From positions 2,728,001 through 2,792,000 of the forward strand of contig NC_016475.1 of assembly GCF_000226095.1 (NCBI RefSeq): 64,000 nucleotides of DNA, given 5' to 3'. Shown piece after piece: positions 12,198-64,000 of the stretch (its first letter is position 1; each line of letters starts with the position of its first letter). Position numbers and translations under genes: made by a program. Origin of the DNA: Thermothelomyces thermophilus ATCC 42464. Taxonomy: Eukaryota > Ascomycota > Sordariomycetes > Sordariales > Chaetomiaceae. Under the pieces are notes generated by a model. The model searched no databases. It had not been told where the DNA came from and saw only the letters and a list, made by a program, of their open reading frames with translations.

Positions 12198-12313
12198 CGA
12201 TGCCCCCTCTTTAGGGCTTTTGACCTGAAAGCTTCTTATAACTTGTTTTAAGTATTACTAATACCCCCTTTTCCTAGTAGGTAATATCCTTCTTTTATTA
12301 ACTTCCTTTTGCT

Positions 12314-12991
12314 ATAGCTAATTATATTCCTAGGAATTATTATAATCTTAAACGCGAATAATATACTATTATAATTAAGATTAAGTAAGAGGATTATAAG
12401 GTTGCTATACCTTATAAGTATTATTAGAATATAAAGCTATAAAAGCGTTATATAATGATAGAAGGTTTAAACAAATATTAAAACTATATTTATATAGGCA
12501 AGAAGTATAGTAGTCTAAATATTATAAATATCTATAGGTTCCTTATTATTTTCCTTTATAGTCTTAGGTTACTAACTATCTTAGTCCTTTCGAATTTGTT
12601 AGAGCAAGAGAAGGTTTTAAGGGAGATTACTAGGACTAAGGTATTACTTACTTAGATACTAAGCCGTTTAAGTCGATTACGTCATTTATAATAATCCCTA
12701 TATAATCGTAGTACCGAAGTTTTTCGTCATAGTATAGCTCGTCTAGAGGAGGAAGAAGAGCTAGATACTCCTCCGCCGATATCGGAGATATAGACCCTTA
12801 TAGGTTAGGCTTAGGCGTTAGGTGCTTTTGACGTACTTAATTAGGAGTTAATTAGGTTAAATCCTGGTCCTAATTCTAGTAGGTTCCCTTCTTTTTCTAT
12901 TAGGGAATAGGCTTTAGAGCTAGTTCTTATAGCTAGTTAGGATTTTACTAGTAGAACTACTTTAGTTTCTTAGGGCAATTTAGGTTCTTAA
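12314..12991 (+). pseudogene. Antisense Zn2Cys6-like/coiled-coil gene of the LTR element, copy A
   Basis: 678-bp frame opposite to pol, co-linear and same length as the copy at 59143-59820. The start ATG has become ATA (12314-12316) and the terminal TGA has become TAA (12989-12991). Preserved stretches include RLEEEEELDTPPPISE and SRLSRLR. A TACTAAC branch site followed by TATCTTAG, as in the other type I copy, suggests an intron. The 3' ~120 bases overlap the 3' end of pol, which ends on the minus strand near 12870. Function unknown; see the copy at 59143 for the fuller description. Confidence 0.7.
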
Positions 12992-37399: not shown

Positions 37400-40093
37400 A
37401 ATCTTCTATTATAAGAAGATCTATTACTATATAGATACTAACCTCTAGATTAAGTATATCTATAATATAGTTAAAGGAAACGTCTCTAAGAAACTCCTCT
37501 TATGGAATAACCTATAGGTATTATTCTATAGGTTAGCTCTATGATAATATAAATAGTAACTATTACCTATTAAGAAAGAGACTCTTTACTTAAATATAGA
37601 GATATAGCTCTAAAAGATTAAAGAATAGTTTAATATTTAGTTTAATTAGGTAGGCTAATAGCTAGTTTAGAATAGTTATACTAAAGATAACCTTATTATA
37701 GGTAAATCTATTTACGAATTTATAATAGATCTTTTCTATTATACCTAAGTCTAGGGAGATAAGACAAACTACTAGCTTTTGACTAGACTTTAATTAATAA
37801 TAACCCTAGTACTCCATAAGCTCTATCTTAAGCCATAGAAAACGGATATACTTGACTAATACCTTTTTTAGGTTACTAAAAAATAGGAGATACTCTTTAA
37901 GGAGCTTAAGGCCAAAAGAAGGGCACGGAAAGCCGCTACGTTCAATGTTAAAGATACCTCTAACGGATTAAGCGGTAGCAATAGTAATAGTAATAGCGCT
38001 TCCGAAGATTAAGCTAACTAGTTATATACTAAGCTAAGATAGGGTAATTTAGGCTAACGGTACCGGTCTGACCGCTATAGGCAGAGAGAGGAATAGAAAT
38101 ATAGGTATCTTCTATAAGGAGAGCGATACTAAAATTATAACTAGGAGCCTTATTTAAAAGACTATAACGACTAAGGTAAGGGTAACCGTTTCTAGGGCAC
38201 TAGACCCTAGGAGAAGGGCAGATATAGTAAATGGAATCCCCGCTTCTAACGATTCCGTCGCTATAGCTAGAAGCGTATTAACAAGGATAGTACCTACTAT
38301 TACTATAATATTATGGTAATATCTAGTAAGGATAAAAAAGCTAAAGCTAAATATAAGGAGCTTAAAGCTACTAGCTATCTCCTAATTAGTAACTATAAAT
38401 CCGAAACTAATAGAGATAATAGTAATAGAGAGGCGTACTTCCTTAGTACTATTAAGAAAGACTATATCTAGGAAGACGGTAATATCTATAGGCTTTATAG
38501 ATAGATATTTATAAGCTAAGGAGCGCTATACTATCACTTATACTAGAATTATAAGAAGAAACTATAATTGCTAGAACTACTAAAGAAGGAAGATCTTCCT
38601 TAGGTAGAACAAGACTTTATAGAAGGAGCGATTATACCGTCAGAACTACCCAAGGAACGAAAATAGGAAACTGTACTCCTCTTCTTTGAACCTAGCTAAG
38701 TAGTAGAAGCCAACCTAAGTATAGAAATACCCTTCTACCGGCTAAGGAAAACGTCTTACCTATATATTCCGGTTCGAGCTAACCTAGAAGATCAAACTAT
38801 AGATATCTGTTTCGATATAGGTAATTTAACTAACCTAGTTAACCAGATATAGATTACCTAATAGGTAAAGAATCCTTAATGGATTAAGGGCGAACCCTAT
38901 ACCCTTAAGGGAGTCAATTTAAAGACTAGGATTAGTAAATAGGTCGAATTTGACTTCTATATCCTAGGGGAGGCTAGGAATATGTTAATCGACAGATATA
39001 TCTATATTATAGCTAACGTCATCGACGAACTTGCTCTAAAAATGCTTCTAGGTACCGACTTTATAACGGCTTATAGTGTCAAGATTGACTTTGTCAAGGG
39101 CATTTGTACCTTTAGATCGCTAGCGAATATAAAGATCTATAAAGACGTTATAAAGAAGAACTCTAAGCCTACCTTTTAGAAGGTTACTACTATTCGGTAT
39201 ACCGTCATTTCTATATACTCTACCTAGATAGTCGAGACTTACTTTATACTACTACCTAATAATATTCTAGAAGGCAAGTGCTTTTACTTTACTACTAGCC
39301 GAGATAGAGTCTAGGATGCTATAATTAATCGGTATATACCCCTAGTAGCTATCGTCAGAAATGATACTAATGTCCCTATAGTTATCTAGAAAGGAGATAA
39401 GATTAGCTACCTCTTAGAATACTATAGGGAAGACACTACTACCTAGGTTAATACAAGTAATATAGAGAATATATAGACTAAGGTCTAGGAAGGAATTACT
39501 AAGTAGGAGCTAAAGGAAAAGCTAGAAGAGGCCTAGTAAATATATTATTAAGAAGATATTAGTAATAATAGCTAGGATCTTTAGCCGCCGAACGGAGTCA
39601 ACTTTTATACTCTATCTTATGATATTAAGAAAACTGACGATATTCCGGCCATTAAAAGCAAGGATAGCGTTAGCATTACTAATGTAAATCCTAAGTTTAC
39701 GCTTAAGGTAAAGGAACTTTTAGATAGATATAACCTTTATTACGATAGGGGAATTATACTAATGCTAGAAAACCAGAAGATATAGATCAACCTAGTTAAC
39801 GGTTAGTAAAAGCAAGTCTATATAGTCAGACTATACCTAATAGAGCTTAAAGACCGTAAGGCTCTAGATAAGCATTATAACTAGCTCTAGGCATCTAGTA
39901 GATTCACTTTTATAGATAAACTAACCCCTATTACGTGCCTAGTATTTATCATATAGAGGAAGGTTACTAAAAAGCTAGGAGTAGAAGTCAAGAAGAGCTA
40001 AAGTGTAGTCAACCTATAACTACTAAATATAATTATAGTTCTAGATATTTACCCCTTGCCTAACTAGGACGATATTATAGCCGCTATAGTTAG
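37400..40093 (+). pseudogene. Chromovirus B gag, protease and start of RT
   Basis: A retropepsin is readable: CFDIGNLTNLVN near 38,805-38,845 (D-T-G changed to D-I-G), then MLLGTDFITAYSVKIDF near 39,035-39,090 within an open stretch (38982-39179). RT begins near 39,970 and stops at the GTTAG duplication. Stops are frequent. Gag upstream is too degraded to delimit. Confidence 0.65.
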
Positions 40094-40514
40094 TGTGACG
40101 AACCTAACTTAGACTTCTTCTGAAAGGGTCCAGACGGAGGTAGATTAGGCGGGACAGCAGGCAGGTCGTCTAAGGGATTCGGTGAAGCCAAAGGGTTTAC
40201 AACAACACTTAGAGTTGTCTCTCACAGTAATCAGCAATGCTTGGTATAAGTACTATGATTGTGATTGTTACCACTGGTGAACTCTCAGAGTCCACCATAA
40301 CGAGTGACTATCTACATATATATATAATCCTAAGATCACTCTTTACCTAGTGATCCTTTGCCGTCTAGATCACGGCTGTAGTAGTGATCCTATAGTATAT
40401 AGATCACTTTGCCAAGCGTGATCCTTTCCTAATTGGTCCGTTCGTGCCTACTGTCCTATTGGCCTTTTGGGGGAGGCGGCTTAGGCAGCATCTTACATGT
40501 ATATTTCCGTGACA
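40094..40514 (-). repeat. LTR, copy C (3' LTR in element orientation), U3 type IIa
   Basis: TGTGACGAACC...TTCCGTGACA on +. It contains several GATCAC/GTGATC motifs in the U3 half. Its neighbour inside the element is a purine-rich tract on the minus strand (AAGGAGGGGCATCG), the expected polypurine primer. Confidence 0.95.
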
Positions 40515-40636: not shown

Positions 40637-41286
40637 ATGTCTTATATAGCAAAGCGTTCAACAAAAAGATCCGTGAAGACCGAGGAGCGTATTGCCCTAG
40701 CTACTACTATTAACGAGCTAGGGTTCGAAGTAATGCCTTGTTCTTATTGTTTTTCTCGCGGCCTCTACTACTATATAATAGAGAGTTCTTCTTGTTATAG
40801 TAAATGCGTTTGTTATAAAAGGTTATATAACGGTTCTAGGGTTCTGGTCTTATCTTGTTTATGTTCCCTTGTTAGTATATTTTTCCTATACTAACTTCTG
40901 TAGTATCCTATATTATAGATAAATCAAAGTGCCTCGACTAATTAGAACAAGATGCTAAGGAGGCTCTCTATACTAATCGCGATTCGTTAGCAAAAGTATA
41001 GCGTCGTCTAGACGAGTCTCTAGCTCGTTTGGACCGTATTCGTCGTCAAAAGCGATCGTTGTTATCTCGAGGGTCGGAGATGGTTCGCCGGGGTCTTACG
41101 TCTTTAGATAAATTGGAAGAGGTGGAACAGCAGGAATCGGGAGCGGTTCTAGGTGTATAGCTCAATGGTGGCATTGACGTTGTTAACTAGGGCGCTGTCT
41201 TTAATTCTGTCCTAGTTTTGCCTTTGGTCAATCTAGGTTCTGCCAGTAGAACTATTCTAGTTTCTTAGGGCAGTTTAAATTCTTGA
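40637..41286 (+). pseudogene. Antisense Zn2Cys6-like/coiled-coil gene of the LTR element, copy C
   Basis: The start ATG is kept here. Exon-1-like residues 35, 38, 45, 54, 57 and 64 are Cys, or Tyr at RIP-able codons (MPCSYCFSRG, SSCYSKC), which is C-X2-C-X6-C-X8-C-X2-C-X6-C. After about residue 66 the frame shifts across a segment ending TACTAAC (40889-40895) and TTCTGTAG (acceptor at 40903), a textbook fungal branch and 3' splice site. The downstream frame reads a Leu/Arg/Glu-rich coiled-coil (for example SLAKV, RRLDESLARLDRIRRQK, SEMVRRGLTSLDKLEEVEQQ) and ends at TGA 41284-41286. The donor is uncertain. The 3' part overlaps pol in antisense. Confidence 0.7.
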
Positions 41287-47170: not shown

Positions 47171-47199
47171 ATAACAGAACAAAGGGAGTGGTAATAACG

Positions 47200-47620
47200 T
47201 GTAACGAACCTAACTCAGACTTCTTTTAAAAGGGTCTAGATGGAGGTAGATTAGGCGGGATAGTAGGCAGGTCGTCTAAGGGATTTGGTAAAGCCAAAGG
47301 GTTTATAATAACACTTAGAGTTGTCTCTTATAGTAATTAGCAATGCTTGGTATAAGTACTGTGATTGTGATTGTTACTACTGGTAAACTCTTAGAGTCTA
47401 TTATAACGAGTGACTATCTATATATATATATAATCCTAAGATTACTCTTTACTTAGTGATCCTTTGCTGTCTGGATTACGGCTGTAGCAGTGATCCTATA
47501 GTGTATAGATCACTTTGCCAAGCGTGATCCTTTCCTAATTGGTCTGTTCGTGCCTGCTGTCCTATTGGCCTTTCGAGGGAGGCGGCTCAGGCGGCGTCCT
47601 GCATGTATATTTCCGTAACA
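47200..47620 (-). repeat. LTR, copy C (5' LTR in element orientation), U3 type IIa
   Basis: TGTAACGAACC...TTCCGTAACA on +, followed directly by GTTAG. Confidence 0.95.
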
Positions 47621-48863: not shown

Positions 48864-49282
48864 TGTCACGGAAATATACATATAGATGCCGCCTAAGCTA
48901 CTGGCACAAATGGGCCAATCAAGTCAAAGGAACGAAAGGACCAATTATAACATAGGAAGCATAGTAATCACTACACTTACCAGTAATCAGGGTAATCACC
49001 GCTATACAATTACTTACAATCACCGTAATTAGAAATGATCACTAGGATTATATATATATATAGATAGTCACTCGTTATAGTAGACTCTAGGAGTTCGCCA
49101 GTAGTAACAATTATAATTACAATACTTATACTAAGCATTGCTAATTACTATAAGAGACAATTCTAAGTGTTATTATAAACCCTTTAACTTCACCAAATCC
49201 CTTAGACGGCCTATACGCTTGTCCTGCTTTACCTACCTCTATCTAGACCCTTTTAGAAGAAGTCTAAGTTAGGTTCGTTACA
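48864..49282 (+). repeat. 5' LTR of copy D, U3 type IIb
   Basis: TGTCACGGAAATATA...GGTTCGTTACA. The U3 half carries repeated GATCAC/GTGATC motifs, partly RIP-altered. Confidence 0.95.
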
Positions 49283-49320
49283 CGTTATTACTACTCCCTT
49301 TGTTCTATTATAGTTCAGAA

Positions 49321-52300: not shown

Positions 52301-55290
52301 TAGACAGAACCAAGTTTGTATATTACTAGAAAACTAAGAGACGAGACAAGACTAGGGAAGTACTAAAGGAATACGAAGGATACCTAGCATTCGAACCGAA
52401 ACATCTAGAAGGACTACCAGAACATAGCCTATAGGATTACGAGATCAAGCTTAAGGAAGGAGTATGACTAAAGTTCTTTAAGATTTACTATATGAGCTAG
52501 ATATAGAACGAAGAACTTAAGCGATATTTAGAGGAGAACCTTCGAAGAGGATATATTTGCCTATTGACATTGCTAATAGGCTACCTAATCCTATTTGTGC
52601 CTAAGAAAGACGGAAAGCTATAGTTATATGTCGACTATTGGTAACTTAACGAATAGACTATAAAAAATTGATACCTGTTACTGCTAATCTTATAGCTCTA
52701 AGATTAGTTAGTAGGAGCCTAATATTTTATACGTCTTAACTTGCTATTAGCCTATAACTATATATAGATCAAAGAAGGCGATAAGTGGAAAACGGCCTTT
52801 AGGACACCCTATAGCCACTATAAGTACCTTATCATGCTATTCGGACTTACAAACGCGCCGACAACGTTCTAAGCCCTAATTAATCAAGCTATCTGACCCT
52901 TTCTTAACAAATTTGCAGTATATTATCTTGACGATATACTTATCTTCTCTAAGACAATAGATAAACACCGGAAGTATGTAAAAGTAGTGCTAGACGCGCT
53001 ATATACGTATAAGCTATTAGTTAACAAGGAAAAGAGCGAATTCTATGTTAGGAAGATAGTCTTTTTAGGATACGAGATATCCCTAGGACAAATCCAGATA
53101 GAACCTTTAAAGGTTGAAGCTATTAAGAATTGGCTATAACCGACGTCAATTATAGAAGTACAAAGCTTTATCGGATTTACAAACTTCTACTAGATATTTA
53201 TTAGGAACTTTGGAGCGATCGTATAACCTTTGTACAAACTTACTAAGAAGAATGCTAAATTCTAATAGGAAGAACAATATAAGCAAGCATTTATATAGAT
53301 TCGTGATGCTATTACTAAAGATCTAGTACTAGTATTGCCAGACCCTAAGAAGCCATTTAAGGTGGAAACGGACGCTTTAGACTACGCCATTAGAGGACAA
53401 TTGGGATAACGAGACAGACAAGGAAAGCTATATCCTATAGCCTTCTTTTCAAAGAAGCTCGATAGACCACGTCTTAATTACCTAATTTATAATAAGGAAT
53501 TACTTACGATTGTCGAAGCTTTTAAGGAATGGTAACTATACCTTAGCAATACAATTAAACTGGTATAAGTATATATAGATTATAAGAATTTACGGTACTT
53601 TATAATGACAAAGGAGCTTAACGGACGACAAATACGATAGGTAGAATTCCTTATAGAATTTAACTTTGAGATCTACTATAAGAAGGGCAAAGAGAATGTA
53701 CAAACGGACATCTTAAGTCGACGAACAGATCATATAGAAGGACAAACGGAAACAATACTACCGTTATTCAAGGAACGTACAGACGGAACGCTATATTACG
53801 AAATGTAGATACCCGTAGAAGATAATCTACTTAACTCATTCCTAGAATGCTATGTAATCTTTCGAGAAGAAAGGATTAACGAGGTATAGTATTAAGTAAT
53901 ACCTAGACTAGTGGTACCTAACGGAGTAGAAGAAAAAGATAGGAAACTTTGGTACCGAGGTAAAGCGTATATCTATAATAAAGATCAATAGCTACGGATG
54001 ATTCGAGAACTCTAACGAGTCGAAACTCGAAGGATATAAAGGAGTTATAAAGACTGTCGTATAAGTTAAGAAACACTATGACTTTCCATAGTTAACGGTA
54101 CAAGTTAAGGAAGTCATACAGAGCTACGATATCTGTAATTAAAGTAAAACGGCACGATATAAGCCGTATAGGTTACTTTAGCCACTGCTAATAGCTAACA
54201 AACTATAGAGTTTAGTTACGATAGACTTTATTATAAAGCTACTAGAATCTAAGGACATAGCCATAGGAGTAATCTACGATAATATTCTTATTATAGTAGA
54301 CTGCCTGATTAAATAGGTATACTTCTTTCCCTATAAGGAGTCCTAGACAGCCAAATAACTAGTAGACGTAATCTATTAGTAAGTTACATTAGTATATACT
54401 TAGCTATAAGAATAGATCACCGATAGAGACACTAAGTTCGCGTCAAAGTTTTGGCAAGCGTTAATACAACGATTAGGTGTTAATAGCAAGCTGTTAACGG
54501 CATATTACCTACAGACTAATAGACAAATAGAGCGACTAAACCAAGTTGTTAAGTAGTACCTCCGCTCTTATGTTAACTACTAGTAAAACGACTAGGTTAT
54601 GCTGTTACTAATAGTACAACTCGCTTACAATACGACGCTAACGGAAACGACCAAAGTCATACTATTCTTCGCGAACTACAGATATAAAGTAGACCTTAGG
54701 CAAGGACTAGAGGTTATAGTGCCAAGAGCAGCAGTTAAAGCAGAACAAATATACATACTATATAAAAAGCTTAAAAAGGAACTCGAGTTTGTCAAGACTA
54801 GAATAAAGAACTACTATAATAAATATAGGCTCGAGGGACCTCGCCTAGAGAGGGGAGACAAAGTCTACCTAATCGTACAAAACTTATAAACCAAACGACT
54901 AAGCACGAAGCTAGACTTTAAGAAGGTTAGACCCTTTGTTATCAAAGAACGAATTTCGACATCTAACTACTAACTATCGTTACCATTATCTATATAACTA
55001 CGGATAGATGTTTTTTATATTTTACTTCTCGAACCAGTACCGAAAAACGCTAAGGTTGCTATATATATCGAAGTAGAAGATAAGGAAGAAGAATAGGACG
55101 TCAAAGAAATTCTAGATTTATATATTATCGATAGGGAACTATAGTACCTAGTTAAGTGGCTTAATTTCGGACTAGAAGATAACTTATAGGAATTAGTCAA
55201 GAATTTAAACTGCCCTAAGAAACTAGAATAGTTCCATCGGCAGAACCTAGATCGGCTAAAGGCAAATCTAGGATAGAACCAAAAATAGCG
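49321..55290 (+). pseudogene. Gag-pol of chromovirus copy D, multiply interrupted
   Basis: Gag from about 49,321 with IELPGKYRGTKEDLVGFLTN; zinc knuckle CYNYRKKGHYKREY at 50252 onwards (Cys codons 4 and 14 now Tyr); protease LVDSRVKINLIS near 51,735 (Asp-Ser-Gly now Asp-Ser-Arg); RT with YLDD; RNase H; integrase, including an open stretch at 54599-54889; chromodomain near 55,095-55,230 (DVKEILDL, YLVKWLNFGLEDNL). The 3' limit is approximate. Confidence 0.88.
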
Positions 55291-55807
55291 CCCTAGTTAA
55301 TAATATCGACACTACTATTAAGCTATATAATAGCCTCCGATTCCTGCTATTCTATTACCTCTAATTCGTCTAGATTCGACAAACCCTATATAACCATATC
55401 TACCTCCTTCTCTACTAGGAACTCTCGTTATTTACGGACCCGAGTCAGACAGGCTAATACCTTAGAAGCTTTATATTAATATTCTAATAGCAAGGCTTTG
55501 GCCTCTTTCTCTTTAGCCTTTAAATGACGTTGCTCGTATATGATATAATCTACTGTATTATGATTAGAGATATGCTCTCGTAAGGAAACAGGAACTTATA
55601 AGAAGAAATTAGAACGCTAGAACCATCGTAAGCACAACTCTAACGCATATAAGCCTCGTAGCGACGAGATTTTTTAATCATCTTATACACTTAGTTATAC
55701 TCCGTGTAATAAGAACACGCTATCACTACAAACCCGTGATCGGAAATAAACTAAGCTAAACGCTCACGACGAATAGATGCTAGGGATCTGCGCGCGTTAG
55801 ACGGCAT
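55197..55807 (-). pseudogene. Antisense Zn2Cys6-like/coiled-coil gene of the LTR element, copy D
   Basis: ATG at 55807 and TGA at 55199-55197 on the strand opposite to gag-pol. Codons 31, 34, 41, 50, 53 and 60 are Cys, or Tyr explained by TGC/TGT-to-TAC/TAT, giving exactly C-X2-C-X6-C-X8-C-X2-C-X6-C, followed by DGSS. Downstream of a putative intron the frame encodes a Lys/Glu/Ala/Leu-rich helix (HLKAKEKEAKALLLEY, KASKVLACLTRVRK) and LSNLDELEVIE. In the part I translated the in-frame stops are TAG or TAA at positions fitting CAG/CAA. The 3' end overlaps the pol chromodomain region in antisense. Confidence 0.72.
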
Positions 55808-58574: not shown

Positions 58575-59026
58575 GTATGACGAACCCAACTCAGACTTCT
58601 TCTAAAAGGGTCCAGACGGAGGCGGGCTGAGCATGACGAGCAGGCAGGTCGTCTAAGGGATTCGGTGAAGCCAAAGGGTTCACAATAACACTAGAGTTAT
58701 CTCTCACAGTAATCAGCAATACTTGGTATAAGTACTGTGATTGTGATTATTACCACTGGTAAACTCCTAGAGTCCACTATAACGAGTAACTATTTACATG
58801 TATATATACTTCTACCGATCGCTCATGGTCCCTTTCTATCCTGCCCTTGGATCGCCTTTGGTAGCTAGCTATCCTCCGCTATCTTTCCCTTTTGGCAATT
58901 GTTTACCCGTGGTAGCCCGTGCTCCCTAGCGATCCTGTGTCAGCCTCGCTTCGTGCCCTTCTTGATTGGTGGCTCATTTAGCCTGCTGTACCCTACCGGG
59001 TCGCGGTATATAGTTAGCTCGTGACA
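58575..59026 (-). repeat. LTR, copy E (3' LTR in element orientation), U3 type I
   Basis: TATGACGAACCC...GCTCGTGACA on +, 452 bp, less mutated than the copy A LTRs of the same type. Confidence 0.93.
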
Positions 59027-59142
59027 CGATGCCCCCTCTTTAGGGCTTTCGACCCGAAAGCTTCTTATGACTTGTTTTAAATACCACTAACACCCCCTTT
59101 TTCCAGTAAGTAACGTCCTTCTTCCGCTAACTTCCTTTCGCT

Positions 59143-59820
59143 ATAGCTAATCGTATTTCTAGGAATTGTCGTAATCTTAAACGCGAACGATATGCTATTA
59201 CGATCAAGATTAAGCGAGAGGGTTATAAGGTCGCCATACCTTATAAGCATTATTAGAATACGAAGCCGCGAAAGCGTTATATAATGATAGAGGGTTTAAA
59301 CAAGTGTTAAAACTATATTTGTATAGGTAAGAAGTATAGTAGTCTAAACGTTACAGATACTTATAGGTTCCTTATTATTTTCCTTTATAGTCCTAGGTTA
59401 CTAACTGTCTTAGTCCTTTCGAATTTATTAGAGTAGGAGAAGGTTTCAAAAGAGATTACTAAGACTAAGGCGCTACTTGCTTAGACATTAAGCCGTTTAA
59501 GTCGATTACATCGTTTATAGCAATCCCTGTACGATTGTGGTACCGAAGTTTTTCGTCGTGGCGTAGCTCGTCTGGAGGAGGAGGAAGAACTAGATACTCC
59601 TTTGCCGATATCGGAGACGCAGACTCTTACGGGCCAGGCTTAGGCGTTAGGTACTTTTGACGTGTTCGATTAGGAGTTAATCGGGTTGGATCCTGGTCCT
59701 AATTCCGGTAGGTTCCCCTCTTTTTCTGCCGGGGAATAGGCTTCGGAGCCGGTTCTTGTAGCCGGTTAGGATTCCGTCAGTAGAACTGCTCTAGTTTCTT
59801 AGGGCAATTTAGGTTCTTGA
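59143..59820 (+). pseudogene. Antisense Zn2Cys6-like/coiled-coil gene of the LTR element, copy E
   Basis: 678 bp, one frame throughout, from ATA (59143, expected ATG) to TGA (59818-59820). It has ten premature stops, nine TAG and one TAA, none TGA, each explained by RIP of CAG/CAA. Residues 34, 37, 46, 55, 58 and 65 are Cys or Cys-derived Tyr (C-X2-C-X8-C-X8-C-X2-C-X6-C). Preserved stretches include KRERYAITIKIKREGYKVA, a Leu/Arg-rich coiled-coil, RGVARLEEEEELDTP and an acidic/Pro/Ser tail. TACTAAC (59399-59405) with TAG at 59411-59413 suggests an intron; an 87-bp intron starting GTAAGA would keep the frame but is unproven. The last 122 bases overlap the 3' end of pol in antisense. Confidence 0.75.
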
Positions 59821-62800
59821 CAGGTTCTTATAAGTTATCTTCTAATCTGAAATTAAGCCATTTAACTAGATACTATAGTTCTCCGTTAATAATACGTAAA
59901 TCTAGAATTTCTTTGACGTCCTATTCTTCTTCCTCGTCTTCTACTTCGATATATATAGTAACCTTAGCATTTTTCGGTACTAGTTTAAGAAGTGAAATAT
60001 AAAAAACATCCGTCTGTAGGCATATAGATAATGGTAACGATAGTCGGTAGTTAGATGTCGAAATTCGTTCTTTGATAACGAAGGGTCTGACCTTCTTAAA
60101 GTCTAGCTTTGTGCTTGGTCGTTTAGTTTGTAAGTTTCGTATAATTAGGTAGACTTTGTCTCCCCTCTCTAGGCAAGGTCCCTTGAGCTTGTATTTATCG
60201 TAGTAATTCTTTATTCTAGTTCTGACAAACTCAAGTTCCTTTTTAAGCTTCTTATATAGTATATATATCTGTTTTACTTTGACTACTACTCTTGGCACTA
60301 TGACCTCTAGTCCTTGCCTAAGGTCTGCTTCGTATCTGTAGTTCGCGAAGAACGGTGTGACTTTGGTCGTTTCTGTTGGCGTCATATTATAGGCAAGTTA
60401 TACTATTGGTAATAGCATGACCTAGTCGTCTTACTAGTAATTGATATAAGAGTAGAGGTATTGCTTAATAACTTGGTTTAGTTACTCTGTTTGTCTATTA
60501 GTCTGTAGGTGATATGCCGTTAATAGCTTACTATTAACGCCTAATTGTTGCATTAATGCTTGCCAGAACTTCGACGTGAACTTGGTGTCTCTGTTAGTGA
60601 TCTATTCTTACGGCCAAGCATATATTAATATAACTTGCCGATAGATTACGTCTACTAGCTATTTAGCTATCTAGGATTCCTTGTAAGGAAAGAAGTATGC
60701 CTATTTAGTTAGGCGATCTACTATAGTAAGAATACTATTGTAGATTACTCCTATAGCTATATCCTTAGATTCTAGCAGCTTTATAATGAAGTCTATTATA
60801 ACTAAGCTCTATAGTTTGTTAGCTGTTAGTAGTGGCTAAAGTAGCCTGTACGGCTTATGTCGTGCCGTTTTGCTTCGATTATAAATGTCGTAGCTCCGTA
60901 CGACTTCCTTAACCCGTGCCGTTAACTGTGGAAAGTCATAGTGTTTCTTAACTTAGGCGACAGTCTTCGTGACTCCTTTATATCCTCTAAGTTTCGACTT
61001 ATAGAGTTCTCAAATCATCTGTAGCTATTGATCCTAGTCGTAGATATATACTTTGCCTTGGTACTAAAGTTTCCTATCTTTCTCTTCTACTCTGTTAGGT
61101 ATTACTAGTCCGGGTGTTGCTTAATACTATACCTCGTTGATCCTTTCCTCTCGAAAGATTGTATAGTATTCGAGGAACGAGTCAAGTAGATCGTCTTCTA
61201 CAGGTATCTGTATTTCGTGATATAGCGTTCTATCTGTTCGTTCCTTAAATAACAGTGGTATTATTTCCGTTTGTCCTTTCGTGTGATCCGTTCGTTAGCT
61301 TAAGATATCCGCTTATATGTTCTCTTTACCCTTCTTATAGCAGATCTTAAAGTTAAATTCCGCGAGGAATTCTACCTATTATATTTGTTGTCCGTTAAGC
61401 TCCTTTGTCGTTGTAAAGTATTGTAAATTCTTATGATCTATATATACTTGTACTGGTTCAATTATACCACTAAGGTATAATCGCTATTCCTTAAAAGCTT
61501 TGACAATTGTAAGTAGTTCCTTATTATAAATCGGATAATTAAGACATAGTCTATCGAGCTTCTTTAAAAAGAAGGCTATAGGATATAGCTTCCCTTGTTC
61601 GTCTCATTGTCCTAATTATCCTCCGATAGCATAGTCTAAAGCGTCTATTTCTACCTCGAATGGCTTCTTAGGGTCTAGTAGTACTAGTACTAGATCTTTA
61701 GTAATGGCGTCGCGAATCTTTGTAAATGCTTACTTATGTTACTCTTCCTATTGGAATTTAGCATTCTTCTTAGTAAGTTCGTATAAAGGTTATACGATTG
61801 CTCTAAAGTTCCTAATAAACATCTAGTAGAAGTTTATAAATCTGATGAAGCTTTGTACTTCCGTAACTGACGTTAGTTATAGCCAATTCTTAATGGCTTT
61901 AACCTTTAAAGGTTCTATCCGAATTTGTCCTAGGGATATTTCGTATCCTAGAAACACCGTTTTCCTAACGTAGAATTCGCTCTTTTCCTTATTAACTGAT
62001 AGCTTATATATGTATAACGCGTCTAGTACTACTTTTACGTACTTCCGGTGTTCGTCTATCGTCTTAGAGAAGATAAGTATATTATCGAGATAATATATTA
62101 TAAATTTGTTGAGAAAGGGTCAGATAGCTTGATTAATTAGGGCTTAGAACGTTGCTGGCGTGTTTATAAGTCCGAATGGTATGACAAGGTACTTATAGTG
62201 GCTATAGGGTATCCTAAAGGCCGTTTTCCACTCGTTGCCTTCTTTAATCTGTATATAGTTATAGGCCGATGGCAAGTCAAGATATATAAAATATTAGGCT
62301 CCTACTAACTAATCTCAGAGCTATAAGATTAGCGATAATAGGTATTAGTTCTTTATAGTCTATTTGTTAAGTTGCCAATAGTTAACGTATAATTGTAGCT
62401 TTCTATCTTTCTTAGGTATAAATAGGATTAGGTAGCCTGCTAGCGATGTCGATAGGCAGATATATCCTCTTCGAAGGTTCTCCTCTAAATATCGCTTAAG
62501 TTCTTCGTTCTATGTCTAGCTCGTATAGTAAATCTTAAAGAACTTTAGTTATGCTCCTTCCTTAAGCTTGATCTTGTGATCCTATGGGCCGTGTTCTAGT
62601 AATCCTTCTAGATGCTTTGGTTCAAATGCTAGATATCCTTTATATTCCTTTGGTACTTCCCTAGTCTTGTCTTGTCTCTTGTTTTTCTGATAGTATACGA
62701 ACTTGGTTCTATCTATGGCGATACTGGCGATTTCTCCTATTTTAACCTACTACTCTAATTATAGTGCTCTATATTCGTTAACAGAGAGAACAGCTATTAG

Positions 62801-64000
62801 CGATTTAGCTCGTTCCTCCTGTCGCGATATTGATGTCGTTGTGCTGCCTCTTCTAGAGTCTGTAGTAGTCTGCCTACCACTGTTTGTCTCTTACGGTAGA
62901 TCCGTAGGACATGCCTTTCCTTGAGCATTATCTGCTCGTGATCCTTATATACTCCCTATCTTACTAGTTAAATACAACTCTATTTAGGGTTATAGGTAGC
63001 TACCATTCTTCTAGCTAATGTCCGGGTCGTAATCTTTATACTATAGTAACCCTAATATTATATCTTTATTGTTACCTATGTCTATAATACTAAATATGAT
63101 TATTATAGTCTTCCCTGCCATAGTAATGTCGATCGGTTTGGTCTCCCTATATACCTATTATGTTAGAAATGGCCCTTTGACTATGCCATGCTTCTGCTTC
63201 ATTCTCTAAGGTATCCGTAGCTAATTTACAAGTGTTAGCGAAATTAGATTTATCTCTACTCTACTATCTACTAGTACGAGCATTTTGTGCTGTTTCTACT
63301 GTGCTATTATCTATAATTGCTTGTCTTGCCGCCGTCGTCTAAAGATTGTAGCGATTTCCTATGTTTCTGCCGGGAGGTCTCGATATAGTAGTCTCTTACG
63401 CTAGTCCCTCCTATACTACACTATCACTTGCTGCTACGTAGGCGTTAATGGTTTCCGGGCCCCTTGAAGGGCCCTGACCCGTTTCCTAGGTTAGTGCTAA
63501 CCTCTTCGGTTATTTGGCTAATAGCGGCTTCGTTAATTATACTTATTTCCGTAAGCTATTAAGTGCTTACGGCTTCCTACTATTAGGTCCGTTTTACTTT
63601 CCGTTATATATGCTATAGCTTTGTCTAAAGCTCCCGAATTCGCAATTTCTTTTCTTCCATATAATAGAGGTAATCGTTACTCTAGCACAAGTCCTATATG
63701 TCTTGTCCTATTCCGTAGTACCTAGGCTAGGCTTGTCTTAGAACTATTGTAATGCTTCCTAGATCGCGGGCTTCGATCTTCTAGAGCAATTCGGCCGCTC
63801 TATTTCCTATATTGTAGACCTATTCTACAAGGTATAAGCTTCTATCCTTATTTCCTTGTTAGGTCGGCTAGTGATTGTTTTCGAATTTGTCGCGGAAGTA
63901 GTATTGGCATTTATATACTATACACTAGAACTAGGGCACTTGTATATATGCCTTATATCGAGGGTATAGTTATATAGCGTTGCCTAGGAGGTATTAGAAT
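59699..64000 (-). pseudogene. Pol of chromovirus copy E, partial
   Basis: Minus strand. The pol stop is at 59699-59701, preceded by a basic tail and a chromodomain (NLNCPKKLEQFY). The integrase C-terminus is open at 59921-60385 (154 codons: FFANYRYEADLRQGLEVIVP, LERGDKVYLI, FYISLLKLVP). RT lies near 61,900-62,400, protease near 62,900-63,300. Stops elsewhere indicate inactivity. Confidence 0.88.

Follow-up and report, generated by a model that had tools for sequence, protein, structure and literature searches.

Four types of an antisense retrotransposon gene, each paired with its own U3 on a shared backbone, in Thermothelomyces thermophilus

A stretch of 64,000 nt from Thermothelomyces thermophilus ATCC 42464 (NC_016475.1, positions 2,728,001 to 2,792,000; hereafter the window) contains copies of a chromodomain Ty3/gypsy retrotransposon with an antisense gene, which is opposite to gag-pol and occupies the interval from pol to the 3' long terminal repeat (LTR), the layout of the BRTN family. 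Sequence comparison of the copies showed four versions of this gene (types A/E, C, D and Y), each with its own U3, the LTR half that contains the promoter, on an almost identical backbone of gag-pol and R-U5. The link between gene type and U3 type is new relative to the preliminary description of the window, which was made from the letters alone. On balance, the gene probably encodes a dimeric Zn2Cys6-like regulator of the BRTN family that recognises the U3 of its own element and moves with it.

Because repeat-induced point mutation (RIP) makes transitions only, transversions were used as a clean measure of divergence. Between types (nine pairs), the part of the gene outside pol showed 0.212-0.303 transversions per site, as against 0.001-0.003 in pol; the single same-type pair, A-E, gave 0.000 for the gene and 0.003 for pol. 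The LTR halves differed between types by 0.187-0.303 in U3 and by 0-0.014 in R-U5, and U3 by 0.013 within A/E, all of these values being approximate because fixed cut points (215 and 225 nt) were used and the D slice was off by a few bases. Eight arms spanning gag-pol in the window copies, chosen by similarity, contained 52 transversions in 16,314 sites. When three little-RIPed copies were compared, identity was 80-100% over the first 240 nt of the LTR, dropped to 17-73% across U3 and the gene, except for a stretch of 77-98% at the polypurine tract, and recovered to 83-100% in pol; between Y and C the rise came earlier, within exon 2. The synonymous divergence (dS) of pol between three of the types was 0.18-0.22 (the C copy holds four stops there and the A copy five), whereas exon 1 was near or at saturation. 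In the LTRs of loci L024, L028, L070 and L071, the switch from variable to conserved sequence lies near a TATATATA stretch, as in the crapaud element of Podospora.

The whole genome (38,744,216 bases, seven contigs) was searched for further copies, and gene type and U3 type agreed at all 74 loci tested (A 10, C 30, D 30 and Y 4, counting the four reference loci). The A/E, C and D loci were fetched with queries lacking U3. A cruder, position-free test agreed at 70 loci and scored a second U3 type slightly higher at the other four. As the copies descend from four founders, these loci represent four independent pairings, not 74. Pairs of CGG half-sites in the LTRs were not striking, as judged without a control set. 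In the protein tree (52 rows), type Y grouped with Canariomyces (100/89) and Chaetomium (99/91), type D, read from exon 2 of one RIPed copy, with one Corynascus and one metagenome protein (100/88), and type C with another Corynascus protein, Staphylotrichum and metagenome proteins (99/93), while type A was a long lone branch. Three types (Y, D and C) are thus nearer to proteins of other genera than to each other, and horizontal transfer is another way to read this kinship.

The copy number is high, with at least 150 protein matches per query among the best candidates scored. Five of the 70 loci measured were hardly RIPed (L024, L028, L029, L069 and L070; GC content 0.52-0.54, TA/AT 0.52-0.73), some of which still contain a stop or two. 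Type Y comprises a young, un-RIPed set (L071-L074) with a mutual identity of 99.7-99.9%, and one young copy has LTRs identical over 448 of 448 nt. Among the best candidates scored, 18 places matched exon 2 (P0012) at a single score with zero stops, and 18 places likewise matched exon 1. In the young copies, the antisense gene is open and includes a phase-1 intron, a six-cysteine cluster, a long coiled coil and an acidic tail. The pol gene of the young copy is open for 1264 codons within the stretch read and, scanned as three pieces, contains protease, reverse transcriptase, RNase H, integrase and chromodomain. A single match score at 18 places, together with open pol and identical LTRs in the copy read, in a genome whose copies, as read, are mostly heavily RIPed, indicates that type Y is probably a very recent burst whose copies RIP has yet to reach. 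The antisense gene of the young copy terminates inside the pol chromodomain, with an overlap of 125 nt between pol and exon 2. The same DNA (59699-59820 in the window, and the equivalents in L024 and L071) encodes the chromodomain-bearing end of pol on one strand and the tail at the C-terminus of the antisense protein on the other.

The AT-rich parts of the window are RIPed copies of retrotransposons (TA/AT 1.3-1.8, whereas the GC-rich flanks have about 0.6). LTR pairs delimit copies A, C and D, and copy E extends past the end of the window. As the preliminary description had it, all four carry the gene opposite gag-pol and adjoining the 3' LTR, at the following positions.

58576..59026 (-), 3' LTR of copy E, whose sense strand is minus; ends from boundary motifs by eye and alignment to little-RIPed LTRs
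about 58801-59026, U3 of copy E, the LTR half adjoining the antisense gene; the outer half is R-U5
59140..59359 (+), exon 1 of the copy E antisense gene, 220 nt; Cys-cluster domain with Tyr at some positions; from alignment to L070 and NCBI models P0002/P0003
59360..59410 (+), intron of copy E, 51 nt, phase 1; 5' site AT (GT in L070), 3' AG kept; agrees with the P0002 splice
59411..59820 (+), exon 2 of the copy E antisense gene, coiled coil and acidic tail; TGA at 59818-59820
59699..59820, overlap of the copy E antisense gene and the end of pol; pol stop at 59701-59699 on the minus strand (which may be native or RIP-made in type A/E)
59699..64000 (-), pol of copy E, RIPed, running past the window edge; integrase C-terminus and chromodomain end opposite the antisense gene; domains read on L071
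11742..12197 (-), 3' LTR of copy A (type A/E); ends by eye, from the LTR pair
12311..12991 (+), antisense gene of copy A, RIPed: exon 1 12311-12530, intron 12531-12581, exon 2 12582-12991
40093..40514 (-), 3' LTR of copy C; 5' LTR at 47199-47620, 90.5% identical
40637..41286 (+), antisense gene of copy C, RIPed: exon 1 40637-40856, intron 40857-40903, exon 2 40904-41286; from alignment to L024/L028
55937..56355 (+), 3' LTR of copy D, whose sense strand is plus; ends by eye; 5' LTR near 48866-49288, 87.5% identical
55197..55807 (-), antisense gene of copy D, RIPed: exon 1 55807-55600, intron 55599-55553, exon 2 55552-55197

Copy E contains ten internal TAG or TAA stops before its final TGA, and the absence of internal TGA had been taken as evidence that the frame was coding before RIP. 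This argument is void because TGA is rare in every frame (0-3 per frame in all six frames of all four copies), but the conclusion itself was borne out by the mutations. With one natural, little-RIPed copy of the same type as the reference, the new stops faced CAR, TGG or CGR in 74 of 74 cases in 10 A/E copies and in 152 of 153 cases in 29 C copies. Of these 39 copies, 38 had neither insertion nor deletion, and the changes were mainly C>T before A or G, plus the complements. The RIPed copy E query (X at stops) also matched P0002 and P0003, annotated genes of the same genome, the latter with an unmutated cluster (C-X2-C-X8-C-X8-C-X2-C-X6-C). Dinucleotide shuffles of two exon stretches were open in 9 and 10 of 2000, which, like the many homologues, speaks against a frame open by chance. 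The longest stop-free run of the antisense region in the young copy (116 codons) is on the sense strand, so run length alone has no power to single out the gene. The comparisons of RIPed and little-RIPed copies indicate that the antisense gene was coding before RIP.

The reading frame reported in the four copies was coding, but it is not continuous in C and D, where a 47-nt intron shifts it; exons 1 and 2 of type C thus lie in different frames. Introns were 51 nt in A/E, 47 nt in C, 47 nt in D and 69 nt in Y, all of phase 1 and at one common place. The 3' AG was retained at 9 of 9 A, 29 of 30 C, 29 of 30 D and 3 of 3 Y loci, the C and D sets each containing their reference copy, and the 5' splice site was GT or AT at every locus checked. 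Gene models P0002 and P0004 have exactly the splice inferred here, and joining the two Y exon readings through the split codon reproduces P0025 without a mismatch; these three models are gene predictions, not complementary DNAs. An intron on the antisense strand would outlast retrotransposition, because the element copies its sense RNA. The start codon is ATG in L070 and ATA in window copies E and A, which places the true start of the A and E genes one codon before that described previously. Copies A and E and loci L069 and L070 all have an in-frame TAG near the gene end, which may be where type A/E natively stops. The metagenome proteins P0024, P0026 and P0027 seem to translate through the intron, and metagenome catalogues may contain spurious inserts for this family.

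The stop of pol in the young copy falls within exon 2, which leaves all of exon 1 and 85 codons at the start of exon 2 free of pol. Over this outside part, compared in the gene frame only, third codon positions differed most in 6 of 6 comparisons, and in 5 of 6 when transversions alone were counted. Between C and Y, the nonsynonymous (pN) and synonymous (pS) differences were 0.33 and 0.71 in exon 1 (transversions 15/12/31 by codon position) and 0.41 and 0.79 in exon 2 (29/14/37). The more diverged pairs gave 27/18/32 (exon 1) and 26/19/30 (exon 2) for C-A, and 26/18/24 (exon 1, no third-position excess) and 27/17/34 (exon 2) for Y-A. Purifying selection on pol, which had been named as a possible full explanation of the substitutions, cannot account for a third-position excess that lies outside pol.

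Homologues of the protein were numerous. Exon 2 of type C retrieved 17 at E <= 0.01, and an alignment query at least 95 at E <= 0.001 among 8000 scored candidates, many of them metagenomic or from the same genome; the named genera were Corynascus, Chaetomium, Canariomyces, Staphylotrichum, Parathielavia, Apiospora, Metarhizium, Cordyceps, Colletotrichum, Fusarium and Botrytis. The Botrytis homologue, P0101, is named 'Putative BRTN' (E 1e-9, 38% identity over 78% of the query in a profile search). BRTN is the antisense gene of the Boty Ty3/gypsy elements of Botrytis cinerea (Zhao et al. 2011, Virology 417:248, as cited in PMC8365987, PMC7264820 and PMC4227169). As BRTN is homologous and antisense in Boty, the arrangement, for which the preliminary description named no precedent, has been in print since 2011. 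Boty is likewise a chromodomain element according to the relevant passage of PMC4227169, and the orientation of BRTN is given by the title of the original paper. The six-Cys layout is common to both proteins, with X9 in the middle of BRTN, which is a distant branch of the family in the protein tree. The homologues of other fungi may also be antisense, since the C-terminal tail that they share lies opposite the chromodomain end in the young copy. Eleven annotated 'hypothetical proteins' of T. thermophilus resemble copies or fragments of the gene (P0002, P0003, P0004, P0076, P0081, P0085, P0087, P0091, P0092, P0094 and P0095), and some homologues are publicly named Zn(2)-C6 fungal-type.

The Cys or Tyr spacing described for the window, C-X2-C-X6-C-X8-C-X2-C-X6-C in C and D and C-X2-C-X8-C-X8-C-X2-C-X6-C in A/E, was found as described, and it extends to the relatives. 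The six Cys were complete in 40 of 53 aligned homologue rows, the other 13 being truncated, mutated or differently spaced, and the pattern C-X2-C-X6-C-X5-12-C-X2-C-X6-8-C fitted 39 of the 53; the first loop of A/E is X8. A first loop with basic residues is the PROSITE-like signature of Zn2Cys6 proteins; such residues occurred in only 3 of 53 rows. Zn_clus (PF00172) was the family that matched most members (17 of 53 at E <= 1, with 25 of 96 Pfam families listed), and it matched 11 of 12 Cys-domain stretches (best 9.8e-5, 22.8 bits). The hidden Markov model search proposed earlier gave a divided result at the cut-off of 21 bits: the same-genome proteins were below it (P0003 8.7 bits, P0022 13.6 bits, P0021 no match), as were ten full-length relatives (best P0040, 19.6 bits), whereas one of ten Cys stretches, that of P0040, exceeded it at 22.8 bits. 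Membership of type A/E in DUF3716 (PF12511) was rejected (P0003 15.7 bits, E 0.014; Cys stretch 17.4 bits; cut-off 22 bits). TRP28 (PF04195) was not found in P0003, P0021-P0023 or ten relatives, nor among the 25 of 96 families listed in the group scan. The RIPed window frames matched no Pfam family, and an NCBIfam scan of the Cys domain gave two stray matches only.

The AlphaFold2 model showed a confidence (pLDDT) of 94-96 in ten-residue blocks over residues 21-60 and mostly 96-98 in a helix at 67-132; in a first model, built on A2, the Cys domain was poor. The top PDB match in Foldseek, a weak one, was Pho7-DNA, and the VIA rows of the weak profile matches include PUT3 and HAP1. A PDB profile of the whole family gave 13 weak matches, coiled coils leading, while a PDB search with P0021 alone gave none. 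Pattern scans of viral contigs (4 matches) and genome contigs (96 matches) revealed no relatives. The N-terminal part is basic (median charge of the first 60 residues +6), and the coiled coil and the negatively charged tail noted in the window copies are present in the relatives. Accordingly, the element-borne, once coding, Zn2Cys6-like and coiled-coil character of the product proposed at the outset was retained, and on these features the protein is predicted to bind zinc and DNA and to dimerise through the coiled coil. Its distant origin may be the capture of a host Zn2Cys6 gene.

The protein resembles GAL4-type Zn2Cys6 regulators (PUT3, HAP1, LEU3, LAC9 and Pho7) in the six-Cys spacing, the order of cluster, linker and coiled coil, the weak profile and fold matches, and the one relative's Cys stretch above the Pfam cut-off. 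It differs in that most scores are below this cut-off, in being much shorter and in having basic residues in the second half of the cluster (C-V-R-R-G-R-S-C), not the first; in GAL4-type clusters the first half is usually basic. HBZ of human T-cell leukemia virus type 1 is a bZIP protein. It is not a zinc cluster, and homology to it is not implied; the likeness lies in an antisense gene that is read from the 3' LTR, as is presumed here, and encodes a nuclear regulator (PMC11963269, in the passage on HBZ). The plant elements Retand, Grande and RIRE2 likewise have an antisense gene between pol and the 3' LTR, whose product is a proposed regulator with possible DNA binding, but they have another protein domain (TRP28 in Retand), a POL-3'LTR distance of 2.9-6.6 kb and a non-chromovirus lineage, and the relevant passages describe no U3-linked types (PMC11963269, PMC7264820).

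With U3 types that share one internal region and R-U5, the present element corresponds to the crapaud element of Podospora, for which passages of PMC10787394 describe 14 U3 subfamilies with a largely shared internal region. Crapaud is also a chromodomain element that varies mostly in the U3 half before the TATA box, and its subfamilies diverged before the species complex; escape from RIP was tested as their cause and not supported, while promoter competition was left open (PMC10787394). In contrast to the present element, its figure legend gives two open reading frames, gag and pol, the passages mention no linked gene, and the word 'antisense' was not found in the main text (PMC10787394). No U3-linked antisense gene was found in the literature, among the titles and abstract openings of the matches listed.

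In the proposed mechanism, an antisense transcript would start in or near U3 of the 3' LTR, and its product, dimerised through the coiled coil and holding zinc, would bind DNA with the U3 of its own element as the target. The protein is suggested to recognise the switch of its own element because gene and U3 differ together while the rest is nearly constant. U3 in the 5' LTR would drive gag-pol and U3 in the 3' LTR would stand just upstream of the regulator gene; with U3 at both LTRs, one control region would therefore serve both. If RNAs packaged together underwent template switching in conserved pol and conserved R, regulator and target would be transferred as a single cassette. An activator appears somewhat more likely than a repressor because of the acidic D-W/F tail. 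Tentatively, U3 and the antisense regulator may form a self-recognition cassette comparable to the lambdoid phage immunity region, a possible but doubtful analogy in which each protein reads its own U3 only and limits or licenses its own kind. A backbone that gained a non-resident cassette would then escape the control of the residents and burst.

Weighing against such a role, the linkage of a neighbouring U3 and gene needs no function by itself. The cassettes could have diverged through chance family recombination, or gene conversion could have homogenised gag-pol and R-U5 while U3 and gene, too divergent to pair, drifted. The adjacency of U3 and gene makes linkage without selection sufficient, and template switching recombination and gene conversion are invoked for crapaud in passages of PMC10787394. 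Nevertheless, the constraint on the gene and its presence in all four types suggest that it is useful, and the persistence of old types across genera would be left unexplained; we regard such neutral divergence as unlikely. A nuclear or chromatin-tethering factor that helps the pre-integration complex or the chromodomain integrase to find or enter chromatin is an alternative that is slightly less likely still. The overlap with the chromodomain, in which the gene of the young copy ends, would reflect this tie, and both the basic N-terminal part and the nuclear location of the antisense product of maize Grande (per a passage of PMC7264820) agree with it, but it does not predict a U3 that changes with the gene while pol, the supposed partner, stays nearly identical. 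It is very unlikely that the antisense RNA itself acts, limiting gag-pol through double-stranded RNA or transcription interference with the reading frame as a by-product: antisense RNA control is discussed for retroelements (PMC7264820, in part), whereas the conservation of the protein across genera, the Cys positions, the third-position excess between C and Y outside pol and the place of the intron point to a translated product. Finally, a shadow frame opened opposite pol by its codon bias or by RIP composition has next to no chance of being correct, for although exon 2 partly overlaps pol, TGA is scarce in every frame and the stop-free run is not distinctive, most of the gene lies outside pol, the intron and the codon-position pattern oppose this explanation, and at least 95 homologues, annotated genes among them, refute it.

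Both plants and Botrytis are known to have LTR elements with antisense genes, for which the passages concerned state no function (PMC11963269, PMC7264820). A gene that changes with U3 points to U3 as its target, and the four types provide four natural U3-gene pairs. Some 'hypothetical' and 'Zn(2)-C6' genes of fungal annotations are likely to be retrotransposon genes. If true, self-recognition would explain why four cassettes, three with nearer kin in other genera, reside on one backbone, and why the youngest type, Y, is intact whereas the other types are mostly RIPed, in a sample biased by RIPed queries. It would also explain the U3 subfamilies of Podospora crapaud, whose diversification is a published puzzle (PMC10787394, in part); the prediction is that these subfamilies pair with versions of the antisense gene described here.
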